This document shows positions 15,680 to 42,803 of a stretch of DNA of 64,000 nucleotides, one piece after another. Position numbers and translations under genes: made by a program. A model generated the notes under the pieces. It did not search any database. It was given only the letters and a program-made list of their open reading frames with translations, and was not told where the DNA came from. The first letter of the stretch is position 1. The number at the start of each line of letters is the position of its first letter. The DNA is taken from contig ONDS01000004.1 in the NCBI GenBank assembly GCA_900316685.1, forward strand, positions 1 through 64,000, in the 5' to 3' direction. Origin of the DNA: an uncultured Prevotellaceae bacterium. GTDB taxonomy: Bacteria; Bacteroidota; Bacteroidia; Bacteroidales; Bacteroidaceae.

Positions 15680-17152
15680 TCATCTGCCCTTTGTCTCCAC
15701 CCTTTCGTCGGAGAGTATCTCGCGGGCGGCGCTACGGCTGTCGAACTCCACCTTTGTCTTGGTGAAATCGGGTGTGTTGAAAGAATAGAGTGTCTCGCTG
15801 TAATACTCTTTGGGATTACGCTGGGGCAAGAGGAAAGGTTTGGTGAAACGTCCCTGCTCGTCGACCGAGGTGAGGAACAACTGGGTGTAGAGCCCGTTTT
15901 CCCTTCTCGAGGTGAAGACCACCCAATGGCTGTTGACGTTCCAGTTATGGAAGCTGTCGGCATCGGGACTGTTGATTTCGTCGATGGGCCGTGCCTCGCC
16001 CGTGGCCAGGTCGAGCAGCCACTGTTCGCTCTCCTTATGCCAGACGGAGAAATAGCCATAATCCATGAGTGTGAAAAGGATGTATTTGCCATCATAAGAA
16101 GGCCGTGGCCATGTAAGGCTCTTGCCCATCTTCACCGCATTGAAGAGCGTGTCGACATGGTCGCCGTAGGTGCCGGTCTCGGGGTCGAAACTGATCTTGC
16201 AGAGGTTGTATTTCTCGTCCTTGTAATGTGCAGGATATTCCTGTTGCTTACAAGTCATGTAATAAAGCGTCTTGCCATCGGGGGAAAAGACCGGTGTGTT
16301 CTCCGACCAGTCGGGTGTCATCAGCAGCGAGTCGGTGATCATCTCATGCGTGGAGGGATTGTATACGAACACATCCGAGGAGAGGTCGAACACCTCGATA
16401 CGCTCGTCGTGCACCACATGGAATCCCTGTCGTGTCTGGTTGGTGGAGAAGGCGCAGTACTTGCCCGAGGGGTGCCAATAGGGATAGACCATCGAGCCGC
16501 CGAGCAGGTCGCTTTTCGCCTTGAGCCATTCGCGTTTCCCGTCCTGTTGTATCATCGTCGCCCCATGGTCGCCGCGCACATGGAACACGAAACGTGAAGG
16601 GTCTGTGCGGTTGCTGGAGTGACAGTTGACGCATTGCCCGGGAATACGGGTGTTGTCGATGATTTCATACTCGTCGAAGGTCGACAGGTCGCGCTGATAC
16701 AGTCCCATGTGGCTGAACACCTCATAGCCAGGTGCTATGCGTCGGTAGGTCAGTCCCCACTCGTCGAGGGCATACGGACTTACATGGATGGCGAAGGCCT
16801 TGTACTGGGTCCACTGGCCATCGTTCTTGGCGCAGACGGTCACCGTGAGGTCCTTGCCCTTGTTCTTCTCCAGCAGTGCGTGCCAGTCATCCTCGTCGAA
16901 GTCGGCATATTCGCCGTTGGCTTGCACCTCGGAGCCATCTGCCCCCTTTACCACCACATCCATGCGCTCGCAGTCGCCCTTCATGTTGAAGTTGAGCGGC
17001 GCGATGCCCACGGGGATGGTCACCTCGGTATAGTCGGGATAGATGGCCGGCAGGTCGGAAGACTGCTGTGGGTTGTCGGGACGGTCGGAACAAGCGGCGA
17101 GGAGCAATCCCCCCACGAAACAGAATAAGAAGATACGGGCTGTGTTCATCAT
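15680..17152 (-). CDS. PD40/TolB-like propeller lipoprotein with CxxCH motif (copy B)
   Basis: A lipoprotein signal peptide ends at Cys21 (LLLAAC). The next region carries the family motif LPAIYPDYTEVTIP and an Ig-like stretch. CVNCH follows at residues 174-178, the pattern used for covalent haem attachment. The second half has repeated strands with SPDGKTLYYM and PSYDGKYILF, as in PD40/TolB propellers. Its ATG overlaps the stop of the membrane-protein gene upstream by four bases, so the two are translationally coupled. No catalytic motif is recognised. It probably sits in the periplasm or on the outer membrane. Haem binding is an inference from CxxCH alone. Confidence 0.7.
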   Translation of the reverse strand: MMNTARIFLFCFVGGLLLAACSDRPDNPQQSSDLPAIYPDYTEVTIPVGIAPLNFNMKGDCERMDVVVKGADGSEVQANGEYADFDEDDWHALLEKNKGKDLTVTVCAKNDGQWTQYKAFAIHVSPYALDEWGLTYRRIAPGYEVFSHMGLYQRDLSTFDEYEIIDNTRIPGQCVNCHSSNRTDPSRFVFHVRGDHGATMIQQDGKREWLKAKSDLLGGSMVYPYWHPSGKYCAFSTNQTRQGFHVVHDERIEVFDLSSDVFVYNPSTHEMITDSLLMTPDWSENTPVFSPDGKTLYYMTCKQQEYPAHYKDEKYNLCKISFDPETGTYGDHVDTLFNAVKMGKSLTWPRPSYDGKYILFTLMDYGYFSVWHKESEQWLLDLATGEARPIDEINSPDADSFHNWNVNSHWVVFTSRRENGLYTQLFLTSVDEQGRFTKPFLLPQRNPKEYYSETLYSFNTPDFTKTKVEFDSRSAAREILSDERVETKGR

Positions 17153-18912
17153 TGTTTTTGGTTTTGAAGGATGTAATACCAGAATGTGTGGCGATAAACA
17201 TCGAGCGAAGGGGAATGCGGACCCTCATTCGACACGATACGTGAGAACTGGGCGAAGTCGTTGATCACCTGGGGTGCGACGAGGCCTTCTGGTGGGGTCT
17301 GCCTTCGACCGGCGTATGCCATGACTAAGGCTTGCTGACAAAGAGAGGGAAAATAATTCGCTTTCTGCTGAACAACAGGGAGATATTGCACCACCTTGTC
17401 CAAGTCACAACTGAGCAAGGGATAGGCCATCAGATATTGCATGGCCAAAGTATTGGTGCTGTCGCGTAGGAACAGTTGTCCCACCATACGGTCCTGTTCC
17501 GTTTCGCTGAACAGGAAATCCTCGTTATAAGTCCTTCGTCTTAACTTGCCATAGACGGGGTCATTGTTGATGGTCTGTTCATTGCCCAGCAATTGGCGAG
17601 TACGTTTCGCCCATTTGCGATAGAACATCGTTTTCTCGAGCATGGAGATGTATTTCTCCGCCACCTTGTAGTGGCCGCCAATGAGGTTGGTCTCCACCAA
17701 CCGTTTCACCGCTCGGCAACTCTTGTTATTGTTAGGCAACATCTCCATGGTCTCAAAGGCGAAGCGTTGCGCCGTATTGACCATGCCTAACTGGAAATAA
17801 ACCTCACCGTTGAGCAAGGAAGAAGTAAAATTGCGTTCAAAACCAGGAAACATCCCCTGTACCCCATGTTGGTAGAAGCCGAACAGACGTTCCCCCATCT
17901 GGTTGGTCATGCCCAATGCCAAGTTGGTGGCGCAGACACTCATGGGCAAATCGAGATGATCTTTGGAGGCCTTGTCGAGGATGGCGTTCCATTGTCCGGT
18001 ACGTACCAGGAAGTCATAGTCAATCAGTCCATACGTCTTGGCGTCATAAGACGGGGAAACGACATACCATAACGTCAATAACAACATGGTCGTCACCGCC
18101 GCCACATAAGGTCCACGGAGTTTCACCTTATTGCACAGCCAAGAAGCCACAAAAGGAAGGAGCGCCGTCAGCGCCATCGTTGCCACCATGACCGGCGGCA
18201 CCTCTTTTGGGAAACGGTGATAATCAATGCCACGAAACAGCGACGACAAGGGATAAGGAGCCAACAGACCACTTGCCAAGACAACGGCCACAGCGTAGAC
18301 GATCACCGCAGCAGCATATAGTGCCCCATGAGTGTCCTTCTCTGTGAAAAGTCGCAAGCCCACATACAACGCCACCATAAGCATAGCCGGTCCGATGAAC
18401 CAATAGAGTAGTGGCAAACCGAGAACGACGAAAGCCACCTGCGACCATTTTCCCCGAGGCCAGGCCCACATGGCCACAAGGGCCAGGAGGAATGACACCA
18501 CGAAAGAAAGCATGGTGTTGGTATCGCCCATCAGATACCATACCATCAGTACGGGGATGAACGAGAGAAGGTAAGCCAGTGAGAGTGAAGCGTCGGCCCT
18601 ACACTGCCGGCGAATTAATACCCAGCACAGCCGCTGTATCAACATATAGAGGGTAGCGATGATGACCGCCCCAAAGAGAGGATTATTGTAAAACTGGACC
18701 AAGAACTCCGCCAGCCACCGTCCCAGGCCACCCGGTTGAGCCATCCGCTCTGCGAAATACCCGCCATCGAACAGGAACAGTTGGAACTGCTCATGAAAAG
18801 CCAAGGCGGAAGGATATTTCACCCACCAGAAAAGGAAAGCCAAACAACCCAGAATGAGTGTCGCTCCTATTTTCCACGACTTGCCTATGAACGTACCCAT
18901 CATCTGCCACAT
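17149..18912 (-). CDS. polytopic membrane protein, DUF6057-like (copy B)
   Basis: The 587-residue protein has an N-terminal half with about ten hydrophobic segments and the family motif YPSALAFHEQFQLFLFDGG just after the first helix. The C-terminal half is soluble and helical, like tetratricopeptide repeats (NTAQRFAFETMEML, RAVKRLVETNLIGGHYKVAEKY, MFYRKWAKRTRQLL). Its start codon shares TAATG with the stop of the DUF4369 gene, and its end overlaps the CxxCH lipoprotein gene by four bases. The function is unknown. The constant pairing with a CxxCH lipoprotein suggests a membrane complex. Confidence 0.65.
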   Translation of the reverse strand: MWQMMGTFIGKSWKIGATLILGCLAFLFWWVKYPSALAFHEQFQLFLFDGGYFAERMAQPGGLGRWLAEFLVQFYNNPLFGAVIIATLYMLIQRLCWVLIRRQCRADASLSLAYLLSFIPVLMVWYLMGDTNTMLSFVVSFLLALVAMWAWPRGKWSQVAFVVLGLPLLYWFIGPAMLMVALYVGLRLFTEKDTHGALYAAAVIVYAVAVVLASGLLAPYPLSSLFRGIDYHRFPKEVPPVMVATMALTALLPFVASWLCNKVKLRGPYVAAVTTMLLLTLWYVVSPSYDAKTYGLIDYDFLVRTGQWNAILDKASKDHLDLPMSVCATNLALGMTNQMGERLFGFYQHGVQGMFPGFERNFTSSLLNGEVYFQLGMVNTAQRFAFETMEMLPNNNKSCRAVKRLVETNLIGGHYKVAEKYISMLEKTMFYRKWAKRTRQLLGNEQTINNDPVYGKLRRRTYNEDFLFSETEQDRMVGQLFLRDSTNTLAMQYLMAYPLLSCDLDKVVQYLPVVQQKANYFPSLCQQALVMAYAGRRQTPPEGLVAPQVINDFAQFSRIVSNEGPHSPSLDVYRHTFWYYILQNQKQ

Positions 18913-19493
18913 TAAATTTCAGCCATTCTTTTGAGGAAAGCACCCAACACTGTGCTATCCACATTTTCCGCGATGCGACGTGTATAGTCTTTATAAACGA
19001 GATGAGCACTGTCAAACTGCTGTTTGAGTTGTTCCGCAGCGACTTTCTCACCTTTGTCCTTCAACTCTTTACTTTGGTGACGGAAAGCGGCGTAATTACG
19101 GTTATGCTCTTCCGTCGTCTCCTTCCATCGCTGCAAGGTATCATTCAGCGGAGTGCCCGAGGCAGAACTTACCCTGCCGATATGTACCTGCAATTCGCCT
19201 GGTTCGACGACTACCAGGAGCGTCTGAGTGTTCATGCGATAATGGTAATCAAGCAGGATTTGCGCCATCATCACAGTGTCGCGTGAGAATTCAAACTTGC
19301 CGTCTTTGATCTCGATGGAGTCAACCACCTCACGACGTGTGTCCCCCATAGGCACCAAGAATATCCGCTTACCATTCAAGGACGGGTCATCCACTGTCCC
19401 CATGATATGACACACTCCTGTTTTGTCATTTCCACAAGCGATGGCCAGCAATATCATGCCTACGGCCATCACGGATTGCAATGCTTTTCTCAT
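18912..19493 (-). CDS. DUF4369-type lipoprotein
   Basis: The 193-residue protein starts with a lipoprotein signal peptide (LLAIAC, Cys20) and then a DUF4369-like beta domain (GTVDDPSLNGKRIFLVPMGD, DSIEIKDGKFEF). In most relatives this domain precedes a thioredoxin-like domain; here it is followed only by a charged helical tail, so the redox domain is absent. It lies between the two membrane/lipoprotein pairs of the left arm, 22 bases after one lipoprotein gene and overlapping the next membrane gene by one base, so it belongs to the same operon. Confidence 0.7.
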   Translation of the reverse strand: MRKALQSVMAVGMILLAIACGNDKTGVCHIMGTVDDPSLNGKRIFLVPMGDTRREVVDSIEIKDGKFEFSRDTVMMAQILLDYHYRMNTQTLLVVVEPGELQVHIGRVSSASGTPLNDTLQRWKETTEEHNRNYAAFRHQSKELKDKGEKVAAEQLKQQFDSAHLVYKDYTRRIAENVDSTVLGAFLKRMAEI

Positions 19494-19515
19494 TTCTATG
19501 TTTTACGTAATAGGT

Positions 19516-20991
19516 TTACTTAATCTGTACATGCACCCTTTCCTCTCCAAACACCTGCCTATAAGCCTCCTTCATGTCGAAGTCGACCTTCGTCTTGGTG
19601 AAGTCGGGCACATTATAGGAATCCATCATCTCGAAATAGAACTTCTTAGGATTTCGCTGGGGCAAGAGGAAGGGCTTGGTGGCCTTGCCATCGTCGCCCA
19701 TGCAGGCGAGGAAGAGTTGTGCATACATGCCGTTCTCACGTTTCGATGTGAACACGAACCAGCGACTATCGCTGCTCCAGTTGTGGTAACTCTCCACGTC
19801 CGGGCTGTTCACCTCGTCCATCCTCCTTACCTCACCTGTCTTGAGATCCATGAGCCAGAGGTCGGCATCAGGTTGGCAGACGGGGAAATTGCTGCGGCTG
19901 GCCCTGGTGTACATCAGCCACCGACCTTCATAGGAGGGACGAGCCAAGACATAGCTGCAACTGTCTTTCGGCCCGTTGAGCAAGGTGTCCACCTGTGAGC
20001 CATAAGAGCCCGTCTGGGCATCGAAGGGTATGGCACAGAGGCTACATTTCACTTTCTCGTATTCAGCCGGCACATCGCAAGGTTTCGACGTACTGTAATA
20101 GAGCGTTTTACCATCGGCCGAGAAAGCCGGGAAAATCTCCAGGTCGGGAGTCTGCAGCAAGGGCGAGAGCACCAGTTCGTTGGTTCGTGTATCGAGGATG
20201 ATGATATCGCTGAACTTATGATACACCTCTATCCTCTGACCTGTGCCCGTGAAGAAACTCTGGTGTACCGAGTTGGTGGCGTAGGCACAATAGTCGCCCT
20301 GCGGATGCCAGTAGGCATAACTTCCCGCCGCCTTGGTGCTGTCGGTCTTGGTGTCGTACCATCGCTGCACCCCCTCTTTCTGCACCATGGTGCCTCCCCC
20401 CTCGCCACGGATCTGGAGGGTGAACTGTTGGGGGTTGGCCCGGTTGGGCGTATGGCAGTTCATGCACCGTCCCGGCACCGCCGTTTCCGTAAGGATGGGA
20501 TCCTCGCGGAAGGAATGGAGGTCGCGCTGATAGATGCCTATATTGCCCCCCACCTCATAACCAGGCGGTATACGCCGATAGGTCAGGCCATAATCATCAA
20601 GCCGATAGGAGCTCACCTGCATCTTGAAATCACGGTATTGGCGCCATGTACCATCTTGGAGCACACAGACGGTGAAGGTCAGCGCGCCACTTATGTTTTG
20701 CTCGGTCAGCTCGCGCCATTCTTCGGCATCGAAGTCGGCATAGTCGCCCTGGGTGTGCATCTCTCCCCCCTTGCTCCCCTTGACCACCACATCCATGCAG
20801 TCGATGTCGCCCCCATCAAAGTTAAAGTTCATCGGGGCGATATCGGCAGGGATGGTCACCTCCACATAGTCGGGATAAATCCTGGGCAACTCATCAACCT
20901 GCATGGGGTTCTCCACCTGCATGGAACAAGCACCCAGACAGGCGGCAAGGAGCAAGGCTACAGCCATCCTTATGACAAGCGATTTATTCAT
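19516..20991 (-). CDS. PD40/TolB-like propeller lipoprotein with CxxCH motif (copy A)
   Basis: A paralogue of the protein encoded at 15680-17152 with the same layout: lipobox (LGAC, Cys22), LPRIYPDYVEVTIP, an Ig-like segment, CMNCH at residues 176-180, a conserved YWHP, and propeller strands (FSADGKTLYYSTS, PSYEGRWLMYT, SSDSRWFVFTSKRENG). Cysteines outside the lipobox and CxxCH are not conserved among the three copies, which points to the CxxCH as the functional element. The gene overlaps the upstream membrane-protein gene by eight bases. Confidence 0.7.
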   Translation of the reverse strand: MNKSLVIRMAVALLLAACLGACSMQVENPMQVDELPRIYPDYVEVTIPADIAPMNFNFDGGDIDCMDVVVKGSKGGEMHTQGDYADFDAEEWRELTEQNISGALTFTVCVLQDGTWRQYRDFKMQVSSYRLDDYGLTYRRIPPGYEVGGNIGIYQRDLHSFREDPILTETAVPGRCMNCHTPNRANPQQFTLQIRGEGGGTMVQKEGVQRWYDTKTDSTKAAGSYAYWHPQGDYCAYATNSVHQSFFTGTGQRIEVYHKFSDIIILDTRTNELVLSPLLQTPDLEIFPAFSADGKTLYYSTSKPCDVPAEYEKVKCSLCAIPFDAQTGSYGSQVDTLLNGPKDSCSYVLARPSYEGRWLMYTRASRSNFPVCQPDADLWLMDLKTGEVRRMDEVNSPDVESYHNWSSDSRWFVFTSKRENGMYAQLFLACMGDDGKATKPFLLPQRNPKKFYFEMMDSYNVPDFTKTKVDFDMKEAYRQVFGEERVHVQIK

Positions 20992-22636
20992 GTCGGCCTC
21001 CTTCCATCATTCTCTTCACATAATCGGCATAGGGCGAATTGGCCACATTTCCACGAGCCTGTATACAGCGCACGGCATCCTGATAGCCCCGAGGCATTTG
21101 TGAATAGCCACCATACTGCTGTGCCCAGGACAGGTGTTGCATGAAGTCCTGAACATTGCCCTTGAGCAACAGCTGCGCAAGGAAATAGTCGAGTGCCATC
21201 TTGTTGGATGGGTTGTCGACAAACAAAAGTCCCATCATCTTGTCGATTTCGGGATAACTGAACAGGAAACTGTTCTTATACCTGCACGCGCGGACGCGCG
21301 CCCATTCGGCATGGGCATTGACCTTGGCATCATTGTACAGGCAGGTCTCCGCCTCCTTGGCCCAACTACGGTAGAAAAGGCTCTTTTTCAACAAGTCGAG
21401 TTGTTTGGCTGCCACGTCATACTGTCCATTGACGATCATGCACTCGGCGATGCGCTTGGTAAGGCGCCCGCTCTTCCGCAGGTTCAGGATGGACTCCTGC
21501 GTATCAAAAGCATAACGCTGGGCGGAATTGACCATGCCCAATTGCCAGAACACCTCGGAGGTGGGGAGCATCGACGTGAGGTCACGCGTGCGTGGCATGA
21601 ACAAGGCATCCTCGCCGCTCTGGTAGAATTCGAACTGCCGTTCCGCCAACTGCCGTTTCATGGCAAGGGCCAGGTTGACGCTCTGCGACCAGAAGGGTGT
21701 ACGCACCGTGTAGTGCCGTGCTCGGTCGATGATATCGTCCCACCGCTCATATCGGATGAGGTAGTCCTGGCGGATGAGCTCGTACTTGTCTCTGTCGAAG
21801 CCCTTTTCCGCCGCCCAAAAGGCCAAGAGGAGCAACGACACCACCGTGGCGATCCCGCTCGCCGGGCGGAGGTTGTCGCCCCATCTGCCTACCGCAGCCA
21901 ACAGCACTATGACTGCCGGGATGAGCACTTGGAGAAGAGGCACCATCATGGGTATGCGGTAGTAGTTCAGTCCCCAGGCCACCATCTTGGCGGGCCACTG
22001 GGTGAGCAGCCACTGGTTGGCTGCGAACAGGCAAAGGCCCATGTACAGCAGCAGCCAAGCATTCTTCCAGCCCAAAGCCATGACGCGCAGGGCCACATAC
22101 AGCCACGCCACGGGACCGATGAGCCAATAGAGCGAGGGTATAACCAACAAGTCGGGCCATGCGCTTTTCCTTCCCATCAACAGAGTAGCCCACAACGCCA
22201 TGACGAGTGCCACGGGGTAAGAGAGCAACACGCTCTCGTCGCCCATGTGCCAGAGGAGCAACAGGGGCGGGATGTAGGATAGGAAATACGAATTAGTAAA
22301 TCCGAAATCCGAAATCTGGGAATTGGCATTGCCTGAACTTCTGAACTTCTGAACTCCCGAACTCCTGATGACCCTCCAGGTTAATTGCTGCAAGGTCAGG
22401 AAGAGCAGGGCCAGGAGCAACGCCCCGAGCCACGGTATGTAATAAAACTGCGTGATGAATTCGCCGATGTAATCCGCCAAACCACCTGCCACGCCGATGC
22501 GCTCCCGGAAATAATCGCCGGTGAAGAGAAACAGCTGATACTGTTCCTGATACGACAGCGCATGAGGATAAGCCAACCACCAAAAGAGGTAGATGGCCAA
22601 TGCGAACAACAGCGGTATGATGATTCGACTTTTCAT
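20984..22636 (-). CDS. polytopic membrane protein, DUF6057-like (copy A), with repeat insertion
   Basis: A 550-residue relative of the copy B membrane protein, with YPHALSYQEQYQLFLF near the N-terminus, about ten membrane segments, and a helical C-terminal half (NSAQRYAFDTQESIL, IAECMIVNGQYDVAAKQL, LFYRSWAKEAETCL). About 25 residues after the VIRSSG segment (around residues 93-118) are encoded by octamer and nonamer DNA repeats of the intergenic kind, placed between two hydrophobic segments without breaking the frame. A good promoter lies 17-48 bases upstream. It leads the five-gene left-arm operon ending at 15680. The function is unknown. Confidence 0.65.
   Translation of the reverse strand: MKSRIIIPLLFALAIYLFWWLAYPHALSYQEQYQLFLFTGDYFRERIGVAGGLADYIGEFITQFYYIPWLGALLLALLFLTLQQLTWRVIRSSGVQKFRSSGNANSQISDFGFTNSYFLSYIPPLLLLWHMGDESVLLSYPVALVMALWATLLMGRKSAWPDLLVIPSLYWLIGPVAWLYVALRVMALGWKNAWLLLYMGLCLFAANQWLLTQWPAKMVAWGLNYYRIPMMVPLLQVLIPAVIVLLAAVGRWGDNLRPASGIATVVSLLLLAFWAAEKGFDRDKYELIRQDYLIRYERWDDIIDRARHYTVRTPFWSQSVNLALAMKRQLAERQFEFYQSGEDALFMPRTRDLTSMLPTSEVFWQLGMVNSAQRYAFDTQESILNLRKSGRLTKRIAECMIVNGQYDVAAKQLDLLKKSLFYRSWAKEAETCLYNDAKVNAHAEWARVRACRYKNSFLFSYPEIDKMMGLLFVDNPSNKMALDYFLAQLLLKGNVQDFMQHLSWAQQYGGYSQMPRGYQDAVRCIQARGNVANSPYADYVKRMMEGGRHE
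22285..22375. repeat. intergenic-type repeat inside a membrane-protein gene
   Basis: The segment contains AATCCGAAATCCGAAATC and GAACTTCTGAACTTCTGAACTC, the same style of short repeat that fills spacers elsewhere. The reading frame of the host gene stays open through it. Confidence 0.7.
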
Positions 22637-22652
22637 TTGAAGATATTCCCTG

Positions 22653-22684
22653 CAAAATTAGTCCTATTTTTCGTGACTACCAAA
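22653..22684 (-). promoter_or_regulatory. promoter of the left membrane/lipoprotein operon
   Basis: On the minus strand a TTTG box (22681-22684) is followed after 20 bases by TAATTTTG (22653-22660). The first start codon is 17 bases from the -7 box, so the leader is very short. The surrounding bases closely match the promoter at 23069-23100. Confidence 0.65.
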
Positions 22685-23178: not shown

Positions 23179-23204
23179 GAGAGCCGTGGAAATCCACGGC
23201 TCTC
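23179..23204 (-). terminator. hairpin ending the left SusCD operon
   Basis: GAGAGCCGTGG (23179-23189), a 4-base loop and CCACGGCTCTC (23194-23204) form a perfect 11-base stem just after the last lipoprotein fragment. A matching hairpin ends the right SusCD operon at 37581-37606. There is no marked U tract. Confidence 0.6.
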
Positions 23205-23227: not shown

Positions 23228-23758
23228 TTATTTTGCCTTGAAGTGCCAGTAGGTGGCTTCGCCCCATCCGCCAAGGGCATTGGCATTGCCTTTATCATCA
23301 TGTCCAGGATAAACCAGCGTCATCTTACTGCCTGTCAGGTAAACGACCTCGTAAGCACCGGGTCCCCATGTGGCTTTCGAAGGCATCGTAGCACCTGTGT
23401 TGATGATCCACGGCCAGAGGATGGCATCGGTCTTCAGTTCACCGACCTTCCACTCATCGCCCTCAATCGAATTCAATTCGAACACACCGTTACGAATAAC
23501 TTCACCATTGGCTGTATAACTGGTCAACATGCCGGCAGGAGTGAATGTCATATAGGCTTCGAGGTCGCCATCACCATGGTTCACACCACCTTCGGAGTGG
23601 TCCAACTGCTGGTTGAAGCCACCACCACTATCGGGATCGTCGTTCGTGGAGATTCCCCACCACTGGGCACCACCGCCATTGATACCGATTTCGGAGCCGG
23701 CCCCAAACGGTACCAGAGACGGAAGTATCCCATGTCCAGGTCTTACCGGCCTCATCAT
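23228..23758 (-). pseudogene. C-terminal fragment of a broken SusE/F-like lipoprotein
   Basis: The meaningful frame runs from about 23702 (AGSEIGINGGGAQWWG) to the stop and ends WGEATYWHFKAK. It is the second copy of a beta-rich domain also present in the middle fragment. The residues before AGSEIG are out-of-frame reading of the preceding domain. The stop is natural and is followed by the operon hairpin. Relatives are surface lipoproteins that bind ligand next to SusC/SusD. Confidence 0.6.
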
Positions 23759-24170
23759 AGCCAGTCAGCATACCGGCAAGGTCGGAGTTACTGCAGAAGT
23801 GCCAATAGGTGGCTTCGCCCCATCCGCCAAGAGCATTGACATTGCCTTTATCATCTACACCCGGATAAACGAGCGTCATCTTATCGGCAGTCAGGTAAAC
23901 GATTTCATACATTCCTGTACCCCATCCGCACTGTGACGGAGTTTTGGCACCGGAATTGATGACCCACGGCCACAGGATGGCATCGGTCTTCAAGTCGCCA
24001 ACCTTCCACGCAGTAGGATCGCTCGGGTCGTAGTTCTGCACCTCGTATGCTCCTTGGCGAACCAGATTGCCTTCCTTGTCGTAACTCTTGATCAAACCAT
24101 CCTCGGTGATAACCATATAAGCATCGAGATCGCCATCACCATGGTTCACACCACCTTCGGAGTGGCTCAA
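23628..24170 (-). pseudogene. middle fragment of the broken SusE/F-like lipoprotein
   Basis: This frame really begins near 24269 (AGSEIGINGGG) and contains a full beta domain (HSEGGVNHGDGDLDAYM, KVGDLKTDAILWPWVINSG, EIVYLTADKMTLVYPG, WGEATYWHF), then KTWTWDTSVSGTVW. It shifts frame at GGGCCGGCTCC and runs into the nonsense tail RLRNRYQWRW. A single skipped base at that point would rejoin the next fragment. Confidence 0.6.
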
Positions 24171-24192
24171 CTGCTGGTTGAAGCCACCACCA

Positions 24193-24741
24193 CTATCGGG
24201 ATCGTCGTTCGTGGAGATTCCCCACCACTGGGCACCACCGCCATTGATACCGATTTCGGAGCCGGCCCGTAATGGAGGTATCCCATTTCCAAACCTTTGA
24301 TCCGTAATCGTTGGAAGCCAAGATCTTGATTGCCGGATCCAATTCCTGCTGCACGAAGACAGTCAATGTGGTTTCCGTAGTAGTAACGGAACCGTCGGAG
24401 TTCAAATGACGGATAAAGATGGGCTGGTTAGGATCGGAGCCACGGCCCGGTTTGAGAGAGAACGAGCCGGAAGCGCCGGAAGCCAACAAGTTCATGCTCC
24501 CATCGCCACGATAGTTGTAAATCTGTACCTGACGCCCTGGATTGGTAACATATTTGATATAGTTACCATCAGCGGCCTCCCGTAACATCGCCTCATCAGC
24601 ATACTGTGTGAATGTGATGCCATTGAGAAGGTCGGACTCGCTGGCAGTGACAGTATTATTGTCGACGCTCTCTTGGGCAGGGTCGCAAGCAGTGAGTGCG
24701 AAGGCACCTGCCAGAAGTGACATAAATAATATCTTTTTCAT
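24193..24741 (-). pseudogene. N-terminal fragment of the broken SusE/F-like lipoprotein
   Basis: A lipoprotein signal peptide (ALTAC, Cys19) is followed by an Ig/PKD-like domain resembling the N-terminal part of SusE-type proteins and by KVWKWDTSITG. At GGGCCGGCTCC the frame shifts and ends in the same nonsense tail as the middle fragment. It starts 24 bases after the SusD stop, so it is the third gene of the left SusCD operon. Either the gene is broken, or the assembly has the same error at both near-identical repeats. Confidence 0.65.
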
Positions 24742-29739: not shown

Positions 29740-29740
29740 A

Positions 29741-29759: not shown

Positions 29760-29806
29760 GGGCGAAACCGTTATTACACTTTCTTTTTTCCGATAAGCAT
29801 CATGTT

Positions 29807-29823: not shown

Positions 29824-30136
29824 AATAATATAGTATTTAGGTCGCGTATAACATCTTCACTTTTTCATCGCTTTTATCTCTCTCAACATCTTTCGCTTCT
29901 AAGGAATATCGCCCTTGGTTAGGAGCTATTTCATTTCAATTTGCAAAATTAAACCTTTTTTTTGATTTGCCATAATACTATTTTGCCAAATATTGACACT
30001 TTTCTTTCTGTAACATTTATTTTTGAAATAGTATCAGAAATAGCTAAAATAGTATAACACACACCTTGGAATTATTTGTTTTTTGTATCTATTATATACC
30101 TATTTGTATCAAATTGGAACAAATAGGCAAAGAGCA

Positions 30137-30168
30137 TTTGTGAAATAAATAAAAAAGATTTATATTTG
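30137..30168 (+). promoter_or_regulatory. promoter of the right susC
   Basis: TTTG (30137-30140), 20 bases, then TATATTTG (30161-30168), a full match to the Bacteroidetes consensus. Transcription would begin near 30175, about 220 bases before the ancestral ATG at 30396. Confidence 0.65.
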
Positions 30169-30237
30169 CCAACTGAAATGATGTGTTTTTAGCAGTAGAT
30201 TTGTCGTATTTCCAAATAAGATAACAAGATATTAACA

Positions 30238-30254
30238 ATAAAGTCAAACCTAAA
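30238..30254 (+). promoter_or_regulatory. 17-base element shared by both susC leaders (right copy)
   Basis: ATAAAGTCAAACCTAAA, identical to the left copy. It is followed by CCTATCGAAACAAAAAGG, which resembles CTTATCGGAAAAAAG after the left copy, and then by the palindrome, so the leaders are homologous over more than the element. Confidence 0.55.
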
Positions 30255-30303
30255 GCTTCTGCCTATCGAAACAAAAAGGAACAAACGCGAAATCTCATCA
30301 TGT

Positions 30304-30320
30304 CCTTATTATAAATAAGG
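30304..30320 (+). promoter_or_regulatory. palindrome in the leader of the right susC
   Basis: CCTTATT-ATA-AATAAGG, an inverted repeat of the same type as 29741-29759 but 75 bases from the ATG rather than adjacent to it. Confidence 0.5.
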
Positions 30321-30436
30321 TGATGAATCGGGTCGTATTGGCCATATAAATAACCAAAGAGTTTATACTATTTAACCTAAGAAAATACTTAAAGTATGAA
30401 TTTCAATTTCAGAAAAACGGTGCTGCTGATGGGTGC

Positions 30437-33597: not shown

Positions 33598-35481
33598 ATG
33601 AAGAAATATATATTATCAGCGTTGGCTGTATTGTCAGCGACTTTGTTTACAGCTTGTAACGACATGCTGGACACCGACCCGCGTCCTACACAGTTGACCG
33701 CTGCCACCTTCCCCGGTAAGGCGGCAGACGTGGAGGCCGAGCTGGCAGGTATCTACAGCATCATGAACACAATGGGCGGCGGCGATGCCGACAACCAGAA
33801 CCCGTTCTACTGGTGGGAGGTGATGTCCGACAACTGCTACGGCAGTGGCGGTTTGCAGGACAACAAGGTGAAGTCTCTCCATCACCTCGTCCAGATGAAC
33901 AGCAACCAATATGAAGCTCCCTTCATCCTTCTCTATGGCGGTATCTCCCGTTGCAACAGCTTAATCGAGACCATCGACAATGTGCCTTGGACAGCAGCCG
34001 AGAAAGCCACTCGCGACCAATACCTCGGCGAGGGCTACTTCATGCGCGGTCTCTATTACCTTTGGCTCAGCCAGTTGTTTGGCGATGTGCCTCTGATCAC
34101 CTCCACCACCATCACCGACGAGATGCAGCAGCAGGTGAGCGCCGAGGAGAAAATCTATCCGCAGATCCTCTCCGACTTCACCTCCGGCAAGAACCTCATG
34201 GGTACGACCAAGGGAAGAGGCGACGGCCATGCCAACAAGTTCGTGGCTGAGGCGTTCCTCGCACGTGCCTATATGTTCTGGGCAGGATTCTACAAGAACG
34301 TTTCCGAACTCGCCACCGGCGATGCCACCATCGACCTGGTCGAGCAGGAAGGCTGCCCCGGCGGTTCCATCTCGAAGGCCGATGTGGTCAATGGCCTGAA
34401 CGACATCATCAACAATGGCGGTTACAAGCTCTGCAAGGACTTCCGCTCTCTTTGGCAGTACTCCAACAGTCTGCTTTGGGATGAGGCACACGATGGCAAG
34501 GGCCACGCCTATGCTTTCATCGCCGACATGCCCCGTGAGCTGTGCTTCGACCAGCCCGGCATGGGCAACGGCAACACCGAGGAGCTCTTCCAGATCCAGT
34601 TCATGAACGCCTCGAAATGGGCTATTAACGGCACCTATAACACCGCACGTATGTACTCCAACTACATCTCCGTGTTCTGGGGTCTCCGCGTCAACGGCAA
34701 CAACGGCAACCGCGACTACACCTATCCGTTCACACAGGGTTGGGGACAGGGTTCTCCCTCGTGCAACATCTGGGACGACTGGACAACAGCCGAGCAAAAA
34801 GGCGGTTACAGTGATATCCGCAAGCTCGGTTCGTTGATCGACTGCGAAAACGAGCTGACGGAATACACCTATGTGAAGGACGACTGCGAAGAGTCGGGCT
34901 ATGCCGTGAAGAAATACAACGCCATCACACTGGATGCTTGCGCCACACACGACGATCCTTGGTGGACCATGACCAATGGTTATACCAGCAGTTCCCTTGA
35001 CAACAAGATGCAGGGCGACCACTTCGAGGACTTCTATCTGATGCGTTATGCCGACGTGCTGCTGATGGCTACCGAGCTTACCGGCAACGCTTCCTACATG
35101 AACCAGGTGCAGGCTCGTGCCGGTGTGCCCCAGACAGCTTACTCCTTGCAGGCCGTACAGAACGAGCGCCGCTGGGAGTTCGCCTTCGAGGGACTTCGCT
35201 TCAACGATATGCGCCGCTGGACGGGCGACGAGCCCAACGAAAGCTCCTACGCTCCGAAGGCCCTTCAGGCACAGAGCGGCAAGATGATTGTTTGTTTGGG
35301 TGACAAGGCCAATAAACGTAAGATGGAGCACATGACCTGCTCGTGGACCAAGCGTTACATCGACACCAACGGCTTCCTGGCCAAACCGCAGAGCCAGATC
35401 AATTTGATGAATGGCAATCTACAGCAGAACCCCGGATGGGATGGCACGAATACTGAGACCCAATACAAGACACTTTACTAA
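33598..35481 (+). CDS. SusD/RagB-family outer-membrane lipoprotein (right)
   Basis: The 627-residue lipoprotein (lipobox FTAC, Cys20) has the SusD fold signature GGISRCNSLIETIDNVP, YFMRGLYYLWLSQLFGDVPLI, the C-terminal YLMRYADVLLMATEL and NERRWEFAFEGLRFNDMRRW. It is only moderately similar to the left SusD and longer by about 50 residues, so the two systems probably bind different ligands. It forms an operon with the right SusC upstream and two lipoprotein genes downstream. Confidence 0.92.
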   Translation: MKKYILSALAVLSATLFTACNDMLDTDPRPTQLTAATFPGKAADVEAELAGIYSIMNTMGGGDADNQNPFYWWEVMSDNCYGSGGLQDNKVKSLHHLVQMNSNQYEAPFILLYGGISRCNSLIETIDNVPWTAAEKATRDQYLGEGYFMRGLYYLWLSQLFGDVPLITSTTITDEMQQQVSAEEKIYPQILSDFTSGKNLMGTTKGRGDGHANKFVAEAFLARAYMFWAGFYKNVSELATGDATIDLVEQEGCPGGSISKADVVNGLNDIINNGGYKLCKDFRSLWQYSNSLLWDEAHDGKGHAYAFIADMPRELCFDQPGMGNGNTEELFQIQFMNASKWAINGTYNTARMYSNYISVFWGLRVNGNNGNRDYTYPFTQGWGQGSPSCNIWDDWTTAEQKGGYSDIRKLGSLIDCENELTEYTYVKDDCEESGYAVKKYNAITLDACATHDDPWWTMTNGYTSSSLDNKMQGDHFEDFYLMRYADVLLMATELTGNASYMNQVQARAGVPQTAYSLQAVQNERRWEFAFEGLRFNDMRRWTGDEPNESSYAPKALQAQSGKMIVCLGDKANKRKMEHMTCSWTKRYIDTNGFLAKPQSQINLMNGNLQQNPGWDGTNTETQYKTLY

Positions 35482-35503
35482 TGTTTTTAATCAAGTAATC
35501 AAT

Positions 35504-36268
35504 ATGAAAAAGATATTTTTGCTTTTTGCAGCTGTATGTGCATTTGTAGCTTGCGATCCTGTTCACGAGGATATCAGCAATGGCAATCACATCACAGCCG
35601 ATGAATTGATAGCGAAGTCCAGCGTCACTGTTGACAAGTCTGCTGATGGCAAGAATGGTAACATTGTTACCTGTTCGACCTCGGCCCCGGTTACCGCAAA
35701 GTGGAATATTGGTGGCAAGGAAATGGTTGGTAACTTCGCTTCGAAGAAGATGAGGACTGGTGATTGGACTGTTACCCTTATTGGTCTTTGCGCTGATGGT
35801 ACTGAGGTTACGGCTGATTTCCCCATCAACTGTGAGGTTGAGACAGATCCGATTAAGAAAGTCTGGATTTATGGTGAAGATCCTGTAAGGGAACCTGCAT
35901 TCTGGCTCGATTGCACTAACGATGGTAACGAAGGACGTTTCAGTGATAATGAAGGAAGACATCTGCCCTATCTGAAAGGCGACGTCTATTTCGGCCTCAA
36001 GACCCTCGTCTTTGAAATCGTAGATAGTGAAGAAGGTTCGTTTCGCTGGGGACCAGGCGATGGCCTTACGGCTCGCATCATGAACGGTTGGTGGTCCAAC
36101 GTTTATTATGACGATATGCCTATTACCCTCCCCTATTGGGAACTTCCTCTCACCGAAACGATTGCTAAGGAGTGTGCTGCCACAGATGATGGCGGTGAAG
36201 GTCGTGACCTTTCCATCTTGATGACGCACGGCAAAATTAAAATCAAGTCTGTTTACTATGAGATATAA
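35504..36268 (+). CDS. SusE/F-like lipoprotein (right)
   Basis: A 254-residue lipoprotein starts MKKIFLLFAAVCAFVAC (lipobox FVAC, Cys17). The N-terminal PKD-like part (APVTAKWNIGGKEMVGNF) resembles other proteins found third in SusCD operons; the rest holds aromatic-rich strands (RWGPGDGLTARIMNGWW). A longer frame from 35411 would overlap the SusD gene and lacks a signal peptide at its start, so ATG 35504 is preferred. It is the counterpart of the broken lipoprotein on the left arm but has only one C-terminal domain. It probably binds ligand at the cell surface. Confidence 0.7.
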   Translation: MKKIFLLFAAVCAFVACDPVHEDISNGNHITADELIAKSSVTVDKSADGKNGNIVTCSTSAPVTAKWNIGGKEMVGNFASKKMRTGDWTVTLIGLCADGTEVTADFPINCEVETDPIKKVWIYGEDPVREPAFWLDCTNDGNEGRFSDNEGRHLPYLKGDVYFGLKTLVFEIVDSEEGSFRWGPGDGLTARIMNGWWSNVYYDDMPITLPYWELPLTETIAKECAATDDGGEGRDLSILMTHGKIKIKSVYYEI

Positions 36269-36306
36269 TCATTTCTTATATGTATAATTTTAACAAATCC
36301 GTTATA

Positions 36307-37524
36307 ATGAATAGTTTTAAGAAATTTAGTAAGCTCGCACTCGCCGCACTTATCACATCAAGTCTGTTTACAGCTTGTAGTGATGAGATTACCGAGACTC
36401 CAGGTAATACCATATATACTGCAAACGTTGCTAATCTCAAAAGCGTCGGAAATGCTGTAGATTTGGGTCTTCCCAGCGGTACCTTGTGGGCTGATATGAA
36501 TGTTGGAGCAACATCAGAATCCGACAATGGCATTCTCTTCGTTTGGGGTGATGCCACAGGCACACAAGTGACGCCAACCACTTCGACATCCTATACAGAT
36601 GTCACCTCACCTACTCCTGAATCCGTTTTGTTCAACATGTACAAGGGTGCAGAGAAAGAGGGTTACATGTACGATACGCTCAATGTCTATAAGGAAAACA
36701 TATTGCCTCTGCTTTCGCACGTGGAATTCGCTGATATAGACGACATCGTCAGGGATGTATTCGACCAGGTCAAGGAAGGTAAGACAGGCAAGTTGGTGGC
36801 AACCATCATCAATGGTGGCGATATCCTTTGCCATTGCGACTCGAGCCTGGAAGCAGGAGCTCCGTTTTATCATGCAAACAATCCTATTTATTGGGACAAG
36901 GAAAGCAAATCTTGGGAGACCATCACCATCGATGACACTAAAGGCCTCGAGCTCACTGTCGACCTGATTGACTCCACAAAGGTGAAATTCTTCGAGTGCA
37001 CTGAAGGTAATAAGTATACAGAAGTCAAGGATGATATATTCTATCCTGACCTGGAACAGCGTAAGGATTATGCGGGCGGCGACTTTTCCGCTCCTGCTTA
37101 TCTGATCATCGCCAATGCACAGCACGACCCAGCCACCGCCAATTGGGGCAGCAACTGGCAAATGCCCTCCACCAAGCAAATGCAAGAGTTGATTGACAAA
37201 TGCGAATGGGAATTTGTAGGTAATGGCTACAAGGTGACCGGTCCGAATGGGAACAGCATCTTCCTGCCCGCAGCAGGTTATCGTTACGGCGACAAGGTGT
37301 TCGGAAACGGGAATGCTGGCTACTATGCCACGGGCGAAATACCCGGATCCTACCATTTCCCGTCGATGGCTGAGCAAGTCAATGGTTCTAATGGCAGCAT
37401 GAGTAGTCCCAGCAACATACCCAACGTGTTGATCTTCCAGTATGGGCAGTTTGCTAAATCCGTTAAGATCTACAGCAACTTGAGTACGAGTTACGGATTT
37501 TCCGTCAGACCGGTACAGAAGTAA
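36307..37524 (+). CDS. surface lipoprotein with VDLGLPSGTLWA domain
   Basis: A 405-residue lipoprotein begins MNSFKKFSKLALAALITSSL with a lipobox FTAC. It contains VDLGLPSGTLWADMNVGA and NWGSNWQMPSTKQMQELIDKC, motifs of a domain widespread in Bacteroidetes and related to the Fibrobacter major paralogous domain, here split by an insertion of about 150 residues that carries no recognisable motif. It is the last gene of the right SusCD operon and has no counterpart on the left arm. An upstream ATG at 36280 is possible. The role is unknown; a surface binding or adhesion function is a guess. Confidence 0.65.
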   Translation: MNSFKKFSKLALAALITSSLFTACSDEITETPGNTIYTANVANLKSVGNAVDLGLPSGTLWADMNVGATSESDNGILFVWGDATGTQVTPTTSTSYTDVTSPTPESVLFNMYKGAEKEGYMYDTLNVYKENILPLLSHVEFADIDDIVRDVFDQVKEGKTGKLVATIINGGDILCHCDSSLEAGAPFYHANNPIYWDKESKSWETITIDDTKGLELTVDLIDSTKVKFFECTEGNKYTEVKDDIFYPDLEQRKDYAGGDFSAPAYLIIANAQHDPATANWGSNWQMPSTKQMQELIDKCEWEFVGNGYKVTGPNGNSIFLPAAGYRYGDKVFGNGNAGYYATGEIPGSYHFPSMAEQVNGSNGSMSSPSNIPNVLIFQYGQFAKSVKIYSNLSTSYGFSVRPVQK

Positions 37525-37580
37525 AAAATCATGTCAGTGCTTCATTAACAGAAATGTGTAGAGGCACGTACCATCAAAGT

Positions 37581-37606
37581 GGGCTGGCTCTTGAATGAGC
37601 CAGCCC
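37581..37606 (+). terminator. hairpin ending the right SusCD operon
   Basis: GGGCTGGCTC (37581-37590), loop TTGAAT, GAGCCAGCCC (37597-37606): a perfect 10-base stem placed like the hairpin at 23179-23204 on the left arm. Confidence 0.65.
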
Positions 37607-37671
37607 ATTCTTACAGTTATTGCTTGACTTTGGGGCAGTAGATTCTTACCGTTTTGTCAATCATTCAAAAG

Positions 37672-37689: not shown

Positions 37690-37762
37690 TACCACTGGGT
37701 ATCTTTTTGTATTTATAGACATTGGTTTGCTCACGAGTACCTGTAATTCACTCATATTTAGC

Positions 37763-39583
37763 ATGAATAACAAAAGCATAATATCCAAGGCCATCCTCTA
37801 TGTAAGCCTATTGGCTTTCATGTGTTCCGCAGTGTATATCCTTTACATCAACCAAGAGGTGCTCTATACGGCACACGACCGTTCCGAGTTTCTCCCAGGA
37901 ACCCCCTTCTTCGACCGGCTCATGTCGAAGCCCTTCGGTCTGATGCAGTATGTGGGTGCCTGGCTCACGCAACTATTCTATCATCCCGCCTTGGGCGCCG
38001 CCGTGCTGTCGGCATTATGGGCACTCATTTTTATCGTGGGCGCCAAGGCCTTCCGTTTGCACGGCAGCGCCTCTGCACTGATGCTACTGCCGATAGCCTG
38101 TCTGCTTACCTCCATTGTCGATATAGGCTATTGGATATACATCTTCACCATCCGTGGTTATTGGTTCTCGCAGTCGGTAGGCTATCTTGTCATGCTTCTG
38201 CTCCTTTGGATAGCCCGCAGCACACCCCGCAAATGGCACCTGATGTGGTATTTGATGAGTGTCTTGCTCTATCCTGTGCTGGGCTGGTTCGCCTTGCTTC
38301 TCATCCTTTGCCTGGCACTTACCCAAAAGCCCTCATGGCGTGAAGGTGTGGGTTTCACCCTGATGCTCTTCGCCGCCTTTTTCTGGCGGGGCTGGCTCTA
38401 TTCTGACCTGAAGCTCGACGATGTGGTGCTGGCCGGGCTGCCACGCTTCATCACGCCAAGCGACAGAAGCGACCATCTCACCACCCCGTTCTATGTGCTG
38501 GGTACAGTCTCTTTGCTGATACCGCTATGCCGTAGGTATCTGTTCTGTACCAAGAGTGAGAATGCTAGACTGAAAGTCAAATGGTTCTTCCCCCTGTTGT
38601 GTGCAGTAGCAAGCATCTTCTTTGCATGGACGTTTATGTTCAAAGACAAGAACTATATCAATGAAATGCGTATGGTGCGCTACGGTGAAAACGACCAATG
38701 GCAAGACGTGCTCAAGGTATATGCCGATAACCCCAAACCAACGACTACGATGGTGTTTCTCAAAAATGTCGCCCTGATGCATGAGGGTGGTATACTTGAC
38801 CGTTCGTTCAAATCAGGTAACATTGGTTTCAATATAAACAATCCCGATACGCTCCATGTATCTTTTTTGAATATCGCATCGCCCTTGGTTGATTACAATT
38901 ATGGTATGATGAATGAATCTATCCGACTGAATTTCGAACTTGCCATACAAAAGGGATTCTCTCCTTTCCATCTTAAGATACTTTCCCGTTGTGCATTGGC
39001 TGCCGGAGACGAAAAACTGCTGAAACGGTATATTACTCTGCTACACCATCATCCTTTTTACAGCGACTGGCAACCGGCTCCGGTAGCGGCTAAGGTGAAA
39101 GAGCTGCAATATTCATACCCCGATGAGATTACGGGTGTAGAAAACAGCGATAGTTATATAGTCAATAGCATTTGTCTATGGTATAAAGCAGATAATAAAG
39201 TGGCTTCAGAGCAAGCCTTGCTCTATTCTATGATTCGTTGTGACGGAGGTTGCTTCTGGCCATCGCTGCGTAAGTTTTTGGTCTTGCATGAAGGCGAAGA
39301 TTTTCCTGTGCATGCACAGGAGGCTTATATCCTGTTTATGGATAGGGCTCCGGAAGAAAAGCGGATGATGATTCCAGTAGAACAGGATATCTACGAGCGT
39401 TACCTACAATTCTGTGCAACCCTTGAACGGAAGGTCAAGCCTGGGTTGACACTTGGAATGGTCGCAGAGGACATGCGTGACGAATGGGGAGACACCTATT
39501 GGTATTATTTCTTCTTTGGAAGACAATATAGCAATGTGTTTAACAGGGAAAACAACAGAAATACCATCATAATACGACAATGA
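37763..39583 (+). CDS. polytopic membrane protein, divergent DUF6057-like (copy C)
   Basis: The protein starts MNNKSIISKAILYVSLLAF and has about ten membrane segments, then a soluble helical half (LHHHPFYSDWQPAPVAAKV). It keeps the size, layout and position before a CxxCH lipoprotein of the other copies. The usual EQ(Y/F)QLFLF motif is replaced by YTAHDRSEFLPGTPFF, so it is the most divergent copy. Its second half is visibly richer in A and T than its neighbours. The frame open from 37727 offers an earlier ATG. The stop overlaps the next start by four bases (ATGA). Confidence 0.6.
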   Translation: MNNKSIISKAILYVSLLAFMCSAVYILYINQEVLYTAHDRSEFLPGTPFFDRLMSKPFGLMQYVGAWLTQLFYHPALGAAVLSALWALIFIVGAKAFRLHGSASALMLLPIACLLTSIVDIGYWIYIFTIRGYWFSQSVGYLVMLLLLWIARSTPRKWHLMWYLMSVLLYPVLGWFALLLILCLALTQKPSWREGVGFTLMLFAAFFWRGWLYSDLKLDDVVLAGLPRFITPSDRSDHLTTPFYVLGTVSLLIPLCRRYLFCTKSENARLKVKWFFPLLCAVASIFFAWTFMFKDKNYINEMRMVRYGENDQWQDVLKVYADNPKPTTTMVFLKNVALMHEGGILDRSFKSGNIGFNINNPDTLHVSFLNIASPLVDYNYGMMNESIRLNFELAIQKGFSPFHLKILSRCALAAGDEKLLKRYITLLHHHPFYSDWQPAPVAAKVKELQYSYPDEITGVENSDSYIVNSICLWYKADNKVASEQALLYSMIRCDGGCFWPSLRKFLVLHEGEDFPVHAQEAYILFMDRAPEEKRMMIPVEQDIYERYLQFCATLERKVKPGLTLGMVAEDMRDEWGDTYWYYFFFGRQYSNVFNRENNRNTIIIRQ

Positions 39584-41094: not shown

Positions 41095-41246
41095 TTTTCC
41101 TTTTACGACTACGGAATGAACGAATCATACGACCACGGATTTCCGTGTAACAGCGTCTTATTTTTGAAAAAGAATTTGTATTTTTGTGGCATATTACTCC
41201 AATTGCACAAATAAGTGCATTTTCCGGGAAAGATAAAAAGGTTCAG

Positions 41247-42803
41247 ATGAAGTATTTTCACCTCTTTTACACGTTACTCTTCGGTGTGGCAGTGGTCCTG
41301 TTTTTCGGGATGGCCTATCCGCATCACCTGCATTATCAGGAGCAGTTCCAGCTGTTTCTCTTCGACAGCGACTATATGTGGGAGATTGTCAAGTTGCCGG
41401 GAGGTGTCTCCGACTTATTAGGGCGTTTCTGCACACAGTTCTTCCTTTATGCCTGGGTGGGAGCGCTCATCATCGGCGTACTGCTCGCAGCGGTGCAGCT
41501 GCTCACGCTACGTTTGGCCAACTGGGGGTATCTTTATGGATTGAGTTTTGTGCCTTCGCTGCTGCTCTGGCTCTTCCTGCTCGACGAGAACGCGCTGTTG
41601 GGCGGTGTGTGGGCCGTCGTGCTCACATTGCTCGCTTCCTGGGCTTTTGACAAGCTGCCCAAGGGATGGATACAAAGCATATCGCTCATTGCCGCCGTTC
41701 CCCTACTCTACTGGATGGCGGGTCCTATCTGTGTGGTGTTTTTCCTGCTGCAAGTCCTTCGACAGCCGTTGACGAAAGGTCAAGGTTCAAAGGAGAATGT
41801 TCAACGTTCAATGTTCAATGTTCAACGTATCTCGCTCATCGCCGCGTTCGCACTTCAGGTGCTCATGCCCCTGCTCCTGTCGCAGTTTCTCGCAGTACGT
41901 GAGGGCGGCCTATGGTACGGCATCCACTACCATCGCTACCCGACGGTTACACCGATGCTGCTTTGGGGAGCGGCCTTGTCTGTCGTCGTTCTCGTGTACC
42001 TTGTCAGCATCATGCACCGTTGGGTAGGCTCCTCGAAGGGTCTTGTGGCATCGCTCCTCTCCTTTGCGGTGGTGGCCATCGCCATGGGCTTCCTGGTTGG
42101 CAAGCACGCCAATTTCAAGGCGGAGAAAGTGATGGGCTACGACTTCATGGCCTGCCACCAGCAGTGGAACCGCATACTCGACACCATCAGTGCAGAGAAG
42201 CCCAACAACCAGATAGGCGTGACGGTGCAGAACCTGGCGTTGGCGATGCAGGGAATGCTCGTCAGCCAACTGTTCGAATACAACCAGAACGGCATCGCCG
42301 GCCTCTTGCCCGAAGTGCAGACCGATGCCACCAGTCCGATGCCCACTGCCGAGGCATTCTATCAACTGGGCATGACCAATATGGCACAGCGCACCGTGTT
42401 CGAGGCCCAAGAGGCCATTCTCGATTTCCAGAAGAGTGGCCGATGCTACAAGCGGTTGGCGCAAACCAACCTGATCAACGGCCATTACGATGTGGCCCGC
42501 AAGTATCTCCAGGCCCTGCAGAAGACCCTCTTCTACAGCGATTGGGCCAATGAGACGCTGCCCTTGCTGGGCAATGAGGAAGCGATAGCCAAGCACCCCG
42601 AATACGGACGGTTGCGCCAAATGGGCTATAAGGAAAACTTCTTTTTCGGCGACCTTGTGACCCCGGAGATGCTTGAAAGCCTCTACTTCGGCAACACCGA
42701 CAACCGCCTGGCGTATGAATACTTGGTGGCTTACTATCTATTGACGGGCGACCGCGAACGCTATACACAATTAATGCTCCGCGGACAAAGCAAAAAAGAT
42801 TAA
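41247..42803 (+). CDS. polytopic membrane protein, DUF6057-like (copy D), with repeat insertion
   Basis: This 518-residue protein begins MKYFHLFYTLLFG and carries YPHHLHYQEQFQLFLFDSD, about ten membrane segments and the helical C-terminal half (NMAQRTVFEAQEAILDFQKSG, LINGHYDVARKYLQALQKTLFY). It is closer to copies A and B than to C. Unlike them it has no CxxCH lipoprotein gene after it. Around residues 178-195 the DNA is a heptamer repeat (TTCAACG/TTCAATG) encoding NVQRSMFNVQR between two membrane segments. A -7 box TATTTTTG is at 41179-41186. The frame open from 41184 gives an unlikely longer N-terminus. Confidence 0.62.
   Translation: MKYFHLFYTLLFGVAVVLFFGMAYPHHLHYQEQFQLFLFDSDYMWEIVKLPGGVSDLLGRFCTQFFLYAWVGALIIGVLLAAVQLLTLRLANWGYLYGLSFVPSLLLWLFLLDENALLGGVWAVVLTLLASWAFDKLPKGWIQSISLIAAVPLLYWMAGPICVVFFLLQVLRQPLTKGQGSKENVQRSMFNVQRISLIAAFALQVLMPLLLSQFLAVREGGLWYGIHYHRYPTVTPMLLWGAALSVVVLVYLVSIMHRWVGSSKGLVASLLSFAVVAIAMGFLVGKHANFKAEKVMGYDFMACHQQWNRILDTISAEKPNNQIGVTVQNLALAMQGMLVSQLFEYNQNGIAGLLPEVQTDATSPMPTAEAFYQLGMTNMAQRTVFEAQEAILDFQKSGRCYKRLAQTNLINGHYDVARKYLQALQKTLFYSDWANETLPLLGNEEAIAKHPEYGRLRQMGYKENFFFGDLVTPEMLESLYFGNTDNRLAYEYLVAYYLLTGDRERYTQLMLRGQSKKD
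41778..41830. repeat. heptamer repeat inside a membrane-protein gene
   Basis: GTTCAAA, GTTCAAC, GTTCAAT units of seven bases sit within the coding sequence and keep the frame open. It is the same unit type as the spacers at 22718-22760 and 63913-63950. Confidence 0.75.

Follow-up and report, generated by a model that had tools for sequence, protein, structure and literature searches.

Are the paired membrane proteins and lipoproteins that flank certain SusCD-type uptake genes in Bacteroidales part of the uptake system, and what might such pairs do? This question is raised by a locus at positions 15,680 to 42,803 of the window, by which we mean the whole 64,000-nucleotide stretch at the start of a 170-kb contig (ONDS01000004.1) from an uncultured Prevotellaceae bacterium whose draft genome (GCA_900316685.1) measures 3.15 Mb and is 89.8% complete. 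In this locus, four DUF6057 membrane proteins (hereafter M) and three lipoproteins with a CxNCH motif and PD40 match (hereafter P) flank two divergent SusC-SusD sets. A preliminary description, made from the sequence letters, had the two sets diverging from one intergenic region, and both the coordinates and the gene order hold.

The M-P pair is the conserved unit

The element that is conserved across genomes is the M-P pair itself. In a survey of 393 genomes of the order, with at most three candidates scored per genome, 47 had a strong P match (best E-value at most 8e-74, including two partial matches at contig ends, in G172 and G267), and all 47 also had M; M with a best match of at least 127 bits was present in 49. 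At the gene level, P lies directly 3' of M on the same strand for 187 of the 192 M genes (at least 430 amino acids, aa) in 80 named loci, which are the best 80 of 428 confirmed relatives and mostly Prevotella-like, and for 60 of 69 M genes in other stretches, which exclude the window and are a non-random sample chosen from listed matches. Outside the order, full M was found in two of 365 genomes of the phylum (G493 and G454), each time with a CMNCH-bearing P right behind it.

Each P in the window carries one CxNCH. In an alignment of 269 P rows (260 distinct sequences, some contigs occurring twice, such as L060, which is L198, and L105, which is L194), CxNCH is kept in 268, exactly one CxxCH is present in 267, and a cysteine is aligned at the lipid-anchor place in 99%.

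Several observations weigh against so regular a picture. M has no P directly behind it in five of 192 cases in the named loci and nine of 69 in the other stretches. G034 and G177 carry M without a full P, both at contig ends, the latter with a partial P right behind M; G411, G281 and G364 exceed the DUF6057 cut-off through short matches of 30-60 bits and have no P; and G154 (contig C168; L227:6278-7054) encodes a 259-aa P-like N-terminal part with CVNCH in a genome without M. To these may be added the sole P row without CxxCH, from L170, and a simple lipobox pattern that fits just 167 of the 269 rows.

In the window, the left arm consists of M2 (20984..22636, minus strand, 550 aa; PF19529, E = 1.3e-134) with P2 (19516..20991, minus, 491 aa; PF07676, E = 7.2e-9; motif CMNCH), a DUF4369 lipoprotein (18912..19493, minus, 193 aa; PF14289, E = 3.1e-12), and M1 (17149..18912, minus, 587 aa; E = 4.5e-163) with P1 (15680..17152, minus, 490 aa; PF07676, E = 1.5e-7). 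The right arm consists of M3 (37727..39583, plus strand; E = 2e-64) with P3 (39580..41094, plus, 504 aa; PF07676, E = 1.7e-12) and of M4 (41244..42803, plus; E = 1e-138), which has no P behind it. These Pfam matches agree with the composition first described for both arms, including the naming of the membrane proteins as DUF6057-like, all four of which match PF19529 at 218.9 to 544.6 bits against a curated cut-off of 29.8. The overlap of stop and start codons said to couple the pairs was likewise recovered, M stop and P start falling at 17149/17152, 20984/20991 and 39583/39580. The host genome has no strong DUF6057 gene besides these four, and a weak fifth is found on a different contig.

Two SusCD cassettes and their link to the pairs

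SusC and SusD genes are adjacent in both arms, as expected of SusCD uptake loci. The left set comprises a TonB-dependent outer-membrane SusC of 1071 aa (26524..29739, minus; TIGR04056, E = 1e-278; SusC homologues in PDB), a SusD lipoprotein of 579 aa (24766..26505, minus; PDB SusD-family chains, best E = 1.7e-29) and a SusE-like repeat lipoprotein (23228..24741, minus). The right set comprises SusC (30396..33583, plus; TIGR04056, 896 bits), a SusD lipoprotein of 627 aa (33598..35481, plus; PDB SusD-family chains, best E = 3.7e-17), a SusE-like lipoprotein (35411..36268, plus; tested from 35501; with a relative in L045) and a second lipoprotein-like open reading frame (ORF) of 414 aa (36280..37524, plus). 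The proposal that each set ends in one SusE/F-like lipoprotein was right in part: the left one exists but lies in three ORF fragments, the two outer ones without a Pfam family, and in its place on the right stand the two lipoprotein-like ORFs, neither with a Pfam match at E of 1 or below. The left fragments surround a 155-bp internal repeat (96.8% identical), and relatives have longer unbroken ORFs (e.g., L035, 4363-5847). The right SusC frame is broken near its start and open from 30437; its ATG at 30396 and 64 bp are identical to the start of the left SusC, after which about 60 bp of left SusC sequence are missing and the frame breaks. Because such repeats can mislead assembly, both breaks could be draft assembly errors rather than demonstrated decay. 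The host genome has 13 SusC above the family cut-off, two of them in this locus. A BT2264-type peptide transporter was considered and set aside: among the nine SusC chains listed at E of 1e-30 or below, BT_2264 has the weakest match, and peptide cargo is therefore without support.

The locus had been called mirrored, and as a duplication this could not be upheld: the two SusC are 52%, the two SusD 33%, and M1 and M3 22% identical, and the right arm is a different cassette. A search for the same adjacency in relatives, as had been suggested, found both arms to be recurrent gene sets. The left order, SusC-SusD-SusE-like-M-P-DUF4369-M-P, recurs through the named loci, often facing a third pair. 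For phylogeny and linkage counts, M genes at a contig end with no SusD in view were treated as censored (nine of 69 in the other stretches; in the named loci 29 of 148 on the plus strand and all 44 on the minus strand). In a quick M tree of 93 rows with several long branches (uncensored M of at least 480 aa from the other stretches and the window, plus 30 random uncensored named ones), the clades that hold M3 (six members) and M4 (four members) are both entirely SusCD-linked and have support of 100, and M1 and M2 belong to two further groups; the right arm is therefore a recurrent cassette of its own. The counterpart of M4 is immediately followed by a P in L199 and L206, and not in L185, L186 and the window.

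The pair is free-standing, often but not always tied to SusCD. Sixty-two loci offer at least 4.5 kb of sequence ahead of their first plus-strand M, and in 43 of them a SusD of the same strand stands no more than 4.5 kb upstream. In the other stretches, SusD lies within 6 kb upstream of 23 of 60 uncensored M and of 17 of 43 in the sample from the order alone; of the other genes there that encode at least 200 aa, 25 of 255 have it (Fisher p = 5e-7 for 23 of 60). Co-directional runs, used as the count instead, join SusD with 24 of 53 M, as compared with 29 of 535 other genes taken from the named and other loci together. It should be noted that the genes in these counts are not independent by descent. 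No SusD was found within 6 kb upstream of the remaining 37 M of these 60 (26 of the 43 from the order), and pairs so often without a nearby SusD are therefore not a SusCD part. The preliminary description had held that the arms would be chance neighbours if pairs were as common away from SusCD as beside it. On this point the evidence divides: the 37 M that stand away favor chance, and the excess over background of those near SusD opposes it.

The transcription signals suggest a division within the left arm. Perfect hairpins behind both SusCD sets had been reported and are present, one between SusCDE and the M-P block (23179..23204, minus; 12-bp arms; terminator-like) and one behind the right set (37580..37607, plus; 11-bp arms; not in the terminator-like list). 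A motif resembling the Bacteroidota-type promoter consensus lies just before M2 (22653..22684, minus). In 38 of 77 named loci such a motif stands ahead of the leading M, as compared with one of 69 later M, two of 143 P and 137 of 4000 random windows, and the space from SusE/SusD to the leading M contains a perfect hairpin with 9-bp arms in 16 of 49 cases versus 64 of 980 length-matched random stretches. Judging from these motifs, the M-P block is probably a transcription unit separate from SusCDE, a view that the presence of the promoter motif before just one of seven SusC and none of 42 SusD does not favor. The intergenic region shared by the two sets (29740..30395) has promoter-like motifs at 30137 (plus) and 30245 (minus). 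A 94-aa ORF without Pfam match stands between the hairpin and M2 (22762-23046, minus), with a promoter-like motif at 23069, and may be a remnant of an AAA-ATPase/PD-DExK gene like that before M in L096. Elsewhere in the window, three identical promoter-like motifs occur at 59709, 59790 and 59906 (minus), with a similar one at 59953 (plus).

Neighbouring genes in the window and in relatives

No enzyme is constant beside the M-P order in relatives, and several kinds recur in clusters. A GH2-type gene is directly upstream of M in five of eight cluster members, a GH43-type gene beside the pair in three of 16, an AraC-type gene before M in five of seven, and a HATPase/Y_Y_Y sensor gene behind P in three of ten; GH26, GH115 and AXE1 genes are also present in the stretches. 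In the window, neither a glycan-degrading enzyme nor a glycan-type regulator linked to SusCD, as in a polysaccharide utilisation locus (PUL), was found among the ORFs scanned with Pfam, which are part of the window ORFs; to that extent the same statement in the preliminary description stands.

Other neighbours are recorded here as observations in their own right. In 14 of 20 cluster members a chorismatase-like gene (weak TIGR04444, Rid-type domain) stands no more than 300 bp from the pair and is co-oriented with it, the loci including L035, L041, L070, L077, L096, L105 (= L194), L108, L109, L165, L173 and L205; the host genome has just a weak Rid-like match. In 13 of 16 cluster members (L037, L048, L050, L052, L054, L060, L061, L063, L079, L088, L099, L198 and one more) a Beta_elim_lyase gene, which we take to be threonine-aldolase-like, immediately precedes M. 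The window has an aminotransferase-class gene at 43120-44340, presumably kbl, and an epimerase-type gene at 44567-45511, and a large M6-type peptidase gene with Big_2 and chitobiase-C-like domains adjoins the left arm (11902-15549, minus). Peptidase M49 genes are found upstream of pairs in two distant genomes, directly in L156 (7146-8780) and about 2.6 kb off in L218 (9639-11333).

Candidate functions of the pair

Pfam assigns no function to DUF6057, and a search of one literature library found no paper naming DUF6057 or PF19529. The structural models offer a starting point. In the M1 model (pLDDT 94.9) the membrane half is GT-C-like and the other half is TPR; six of the 50 fold matches listed are GT-C rows and most others are TPR or TPR-like, the non-appearance of other membrane families in such a listing saying little. 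The P1 model (pLDDT 92.1) is a TolB-type propeller with an N-terminal domain. In known GT-C enzymes an acid in the first external loop after TM1 is "absolutely critical" (PMC7801869), and M keeps acids at two loop positions (loops 1 and 2) known from these enzymes. In an alignment of 240 M rows (235 distinct sequences), the loop-1 acid is within two residues of E41 in 233.

Of the readings compared here, we rank foremost, if tentatively and at less than an even chance, a periplasmic protein-modifying module in which M is a TMTC-like GT-C/TPR enzyme and P its lipoprotein partner beside SusCD. The locus would then consist of two blocks lying side by side and transcribed apart, a SusC-SusD-SusE-like outer-membrane complex and one or more M-P modules. 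A polyprenyl-phosphate donor would supply a sugar or some other group, which M, in the inner membrane, would accept at the periplasmic face; the TPR half of M would hold the protein acceptor, and P would be the dedicated acceptor or an adaptor that brings the product to the outer membrane. In loci with SusCD next to the module, the SusCDE complex would be the modified or docked partner. The pairing, the recurrent cassettes and the enrichment of motifs between the blocks are observed, and the folds are models; from these we infer the enzyme activity, the donor, the acceptor, the membrane side and the link of the module to SusCD. On a wider and more doubtful view, DUF6057 and the CxNCH TolB-fold lipoprotein might be an undescribed bacterial two-component protein-modification system, repeatedly recruited to uptake complexes and other operons and decorating or licensing envelope proteins.

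Certain results count against the module reading. No known GT-C family was matched in sequence searches with M; the acid of loop 1 varies, E41 itself being present in 90% of rows; and the SusCD label changes 22 times on the M tree (shuffled mean about 31), so SusCD linkage has been gained and lost many times. A profile comparison of M with one ArnT-like protein also gave no match. According to PMC6801728, identity among GT-C families is low or not detectable.

Comparison with known systems places the pair near several of them. M resembles TMTC1-4 and PMT/STT3 in the GT-C-like membrane half of its model and its loop 1 and 2 acids, and TMTC also in its TPR half, but it is bacterial, lipoprotein-paired and variable at the loop-1 acid, lacks detectable similarity, and its activity is predicted only. 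P is like TolB in its modelled fold, whereas the lipid-anchor cysteine and the CxNCH set it apart, and no Tol-Pal gene family was found among its scanned neighbours. The SusC-SusD-SusE-like order and the TIGR04056 SusC are those of polysaccharide utilisation loci, in contrast to the M-P-DUF4369-M-P block that follows here, probably as a separate unit. General protein O-glycosylation occurs in the same phylum as M-P, and its protein-transferring enzyme is called unknown in PMC8729774, in a Tannerella context. As that general enzyme DUF6057 was rejected: it is above the cut-off in just 52 of 393 genomes of the order and is therefore not a phylum-wide enzyme. Weak DUF6057 matches of about 20 bits outside the order were also set aside; three of those retrieved (L220-L222) adjoin a gene that we recognise as murG-like, and the frame is for this reason presumed to encode a cell-division SEDS protein.

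Next in our ranking, and possible though improbable, is that M and P form a non-enzymatic, envelope-spanning scaffold in which the TPR half of M and P would serve SusCD and other outer-membrane complexes by assembling, positioning or energising them. The TolB-type fold, the TPR half, the variable loop-1 acid and the several different neighbours of the pair would all suit it; the acids kept at both GT-C loop positions count against it, as does the lack of Tol-Pal families among the Pfam-scanned neighbours. An ordinary carbohydrate uptake locus, with its enzymes elsewhere and M-P carried along as a general envelope accessory, comes third and is unlikely. SusC and SusD are ordinary family members, and the GH2-, GH43-, sensor-, AraC-type, GH26, GH115 and AXE1 genes near pairs in relatives point this way; the scanned window ORFs have no such enzyme, and the M-P order recurs without a constant one. 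That the two arms are adjacent by chance ranks last and is very improbable: pairs are also found alone, but SusD association exceeds background, and parts of both types recur close together in L045, L098 and L200/L201, a left-type M-P block standing beside a right-type SusCD in L098.

More probable than chance, yet ranked below a plain glycan locus and decidedly unlikely, is a redox or haem-handling system of the envelope in which P serves as a c-type cytochrome. The CxxCH that would be required is present in 268 of 269 P rows, nearly always once. In ordinary cytochrome c, CxxCH lies on a helix; a motif on the helix of a haem-binding fold was not seen in the P1 model, which was built without haem and has CxNCH on the propeller beta strand 174-181. 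H402 is the sole other histidine or methionine position kept in at least 90% of P rows, and the 240-row alignment has no widely kept histidine in the membrane half of M. The host genome encodes one PF01578 (cytochrome c assembly) protein, which we take to be CcsBA-like. PF01578 is present in 46 of 47 genomes with P and 272 of 346 others, and relatives of the host protein (E of 1e-10 or below) in 39 of 47 and 163 of 346, kinship being uncorrected in both comparisons; a haem role and kinship are both compatible with this distribution, and G345 has P without a PF01578 match. The surface redox system proposed at the outset is thus weakened, the motif and the company of PF01578 speaking for it and the strand of a TolB-type propeller against. 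A haem nitrite reductase context was rejected, as no NrfA (PF02335) was found in the host draft genome.

The close pairing of M and P makes the functions of both testable together. If the GT-C reading of M is true, a further bacterial enzyme type would take part in the glycosylation of envelope proteins by Bacteroidales of the gut and rumen, and certain SusCD systems might come with modification machinery of their own. If that reading is wrong, a TolB-like lipoprotein and a TPR membrane protein still travel together, often beside uptake systems.

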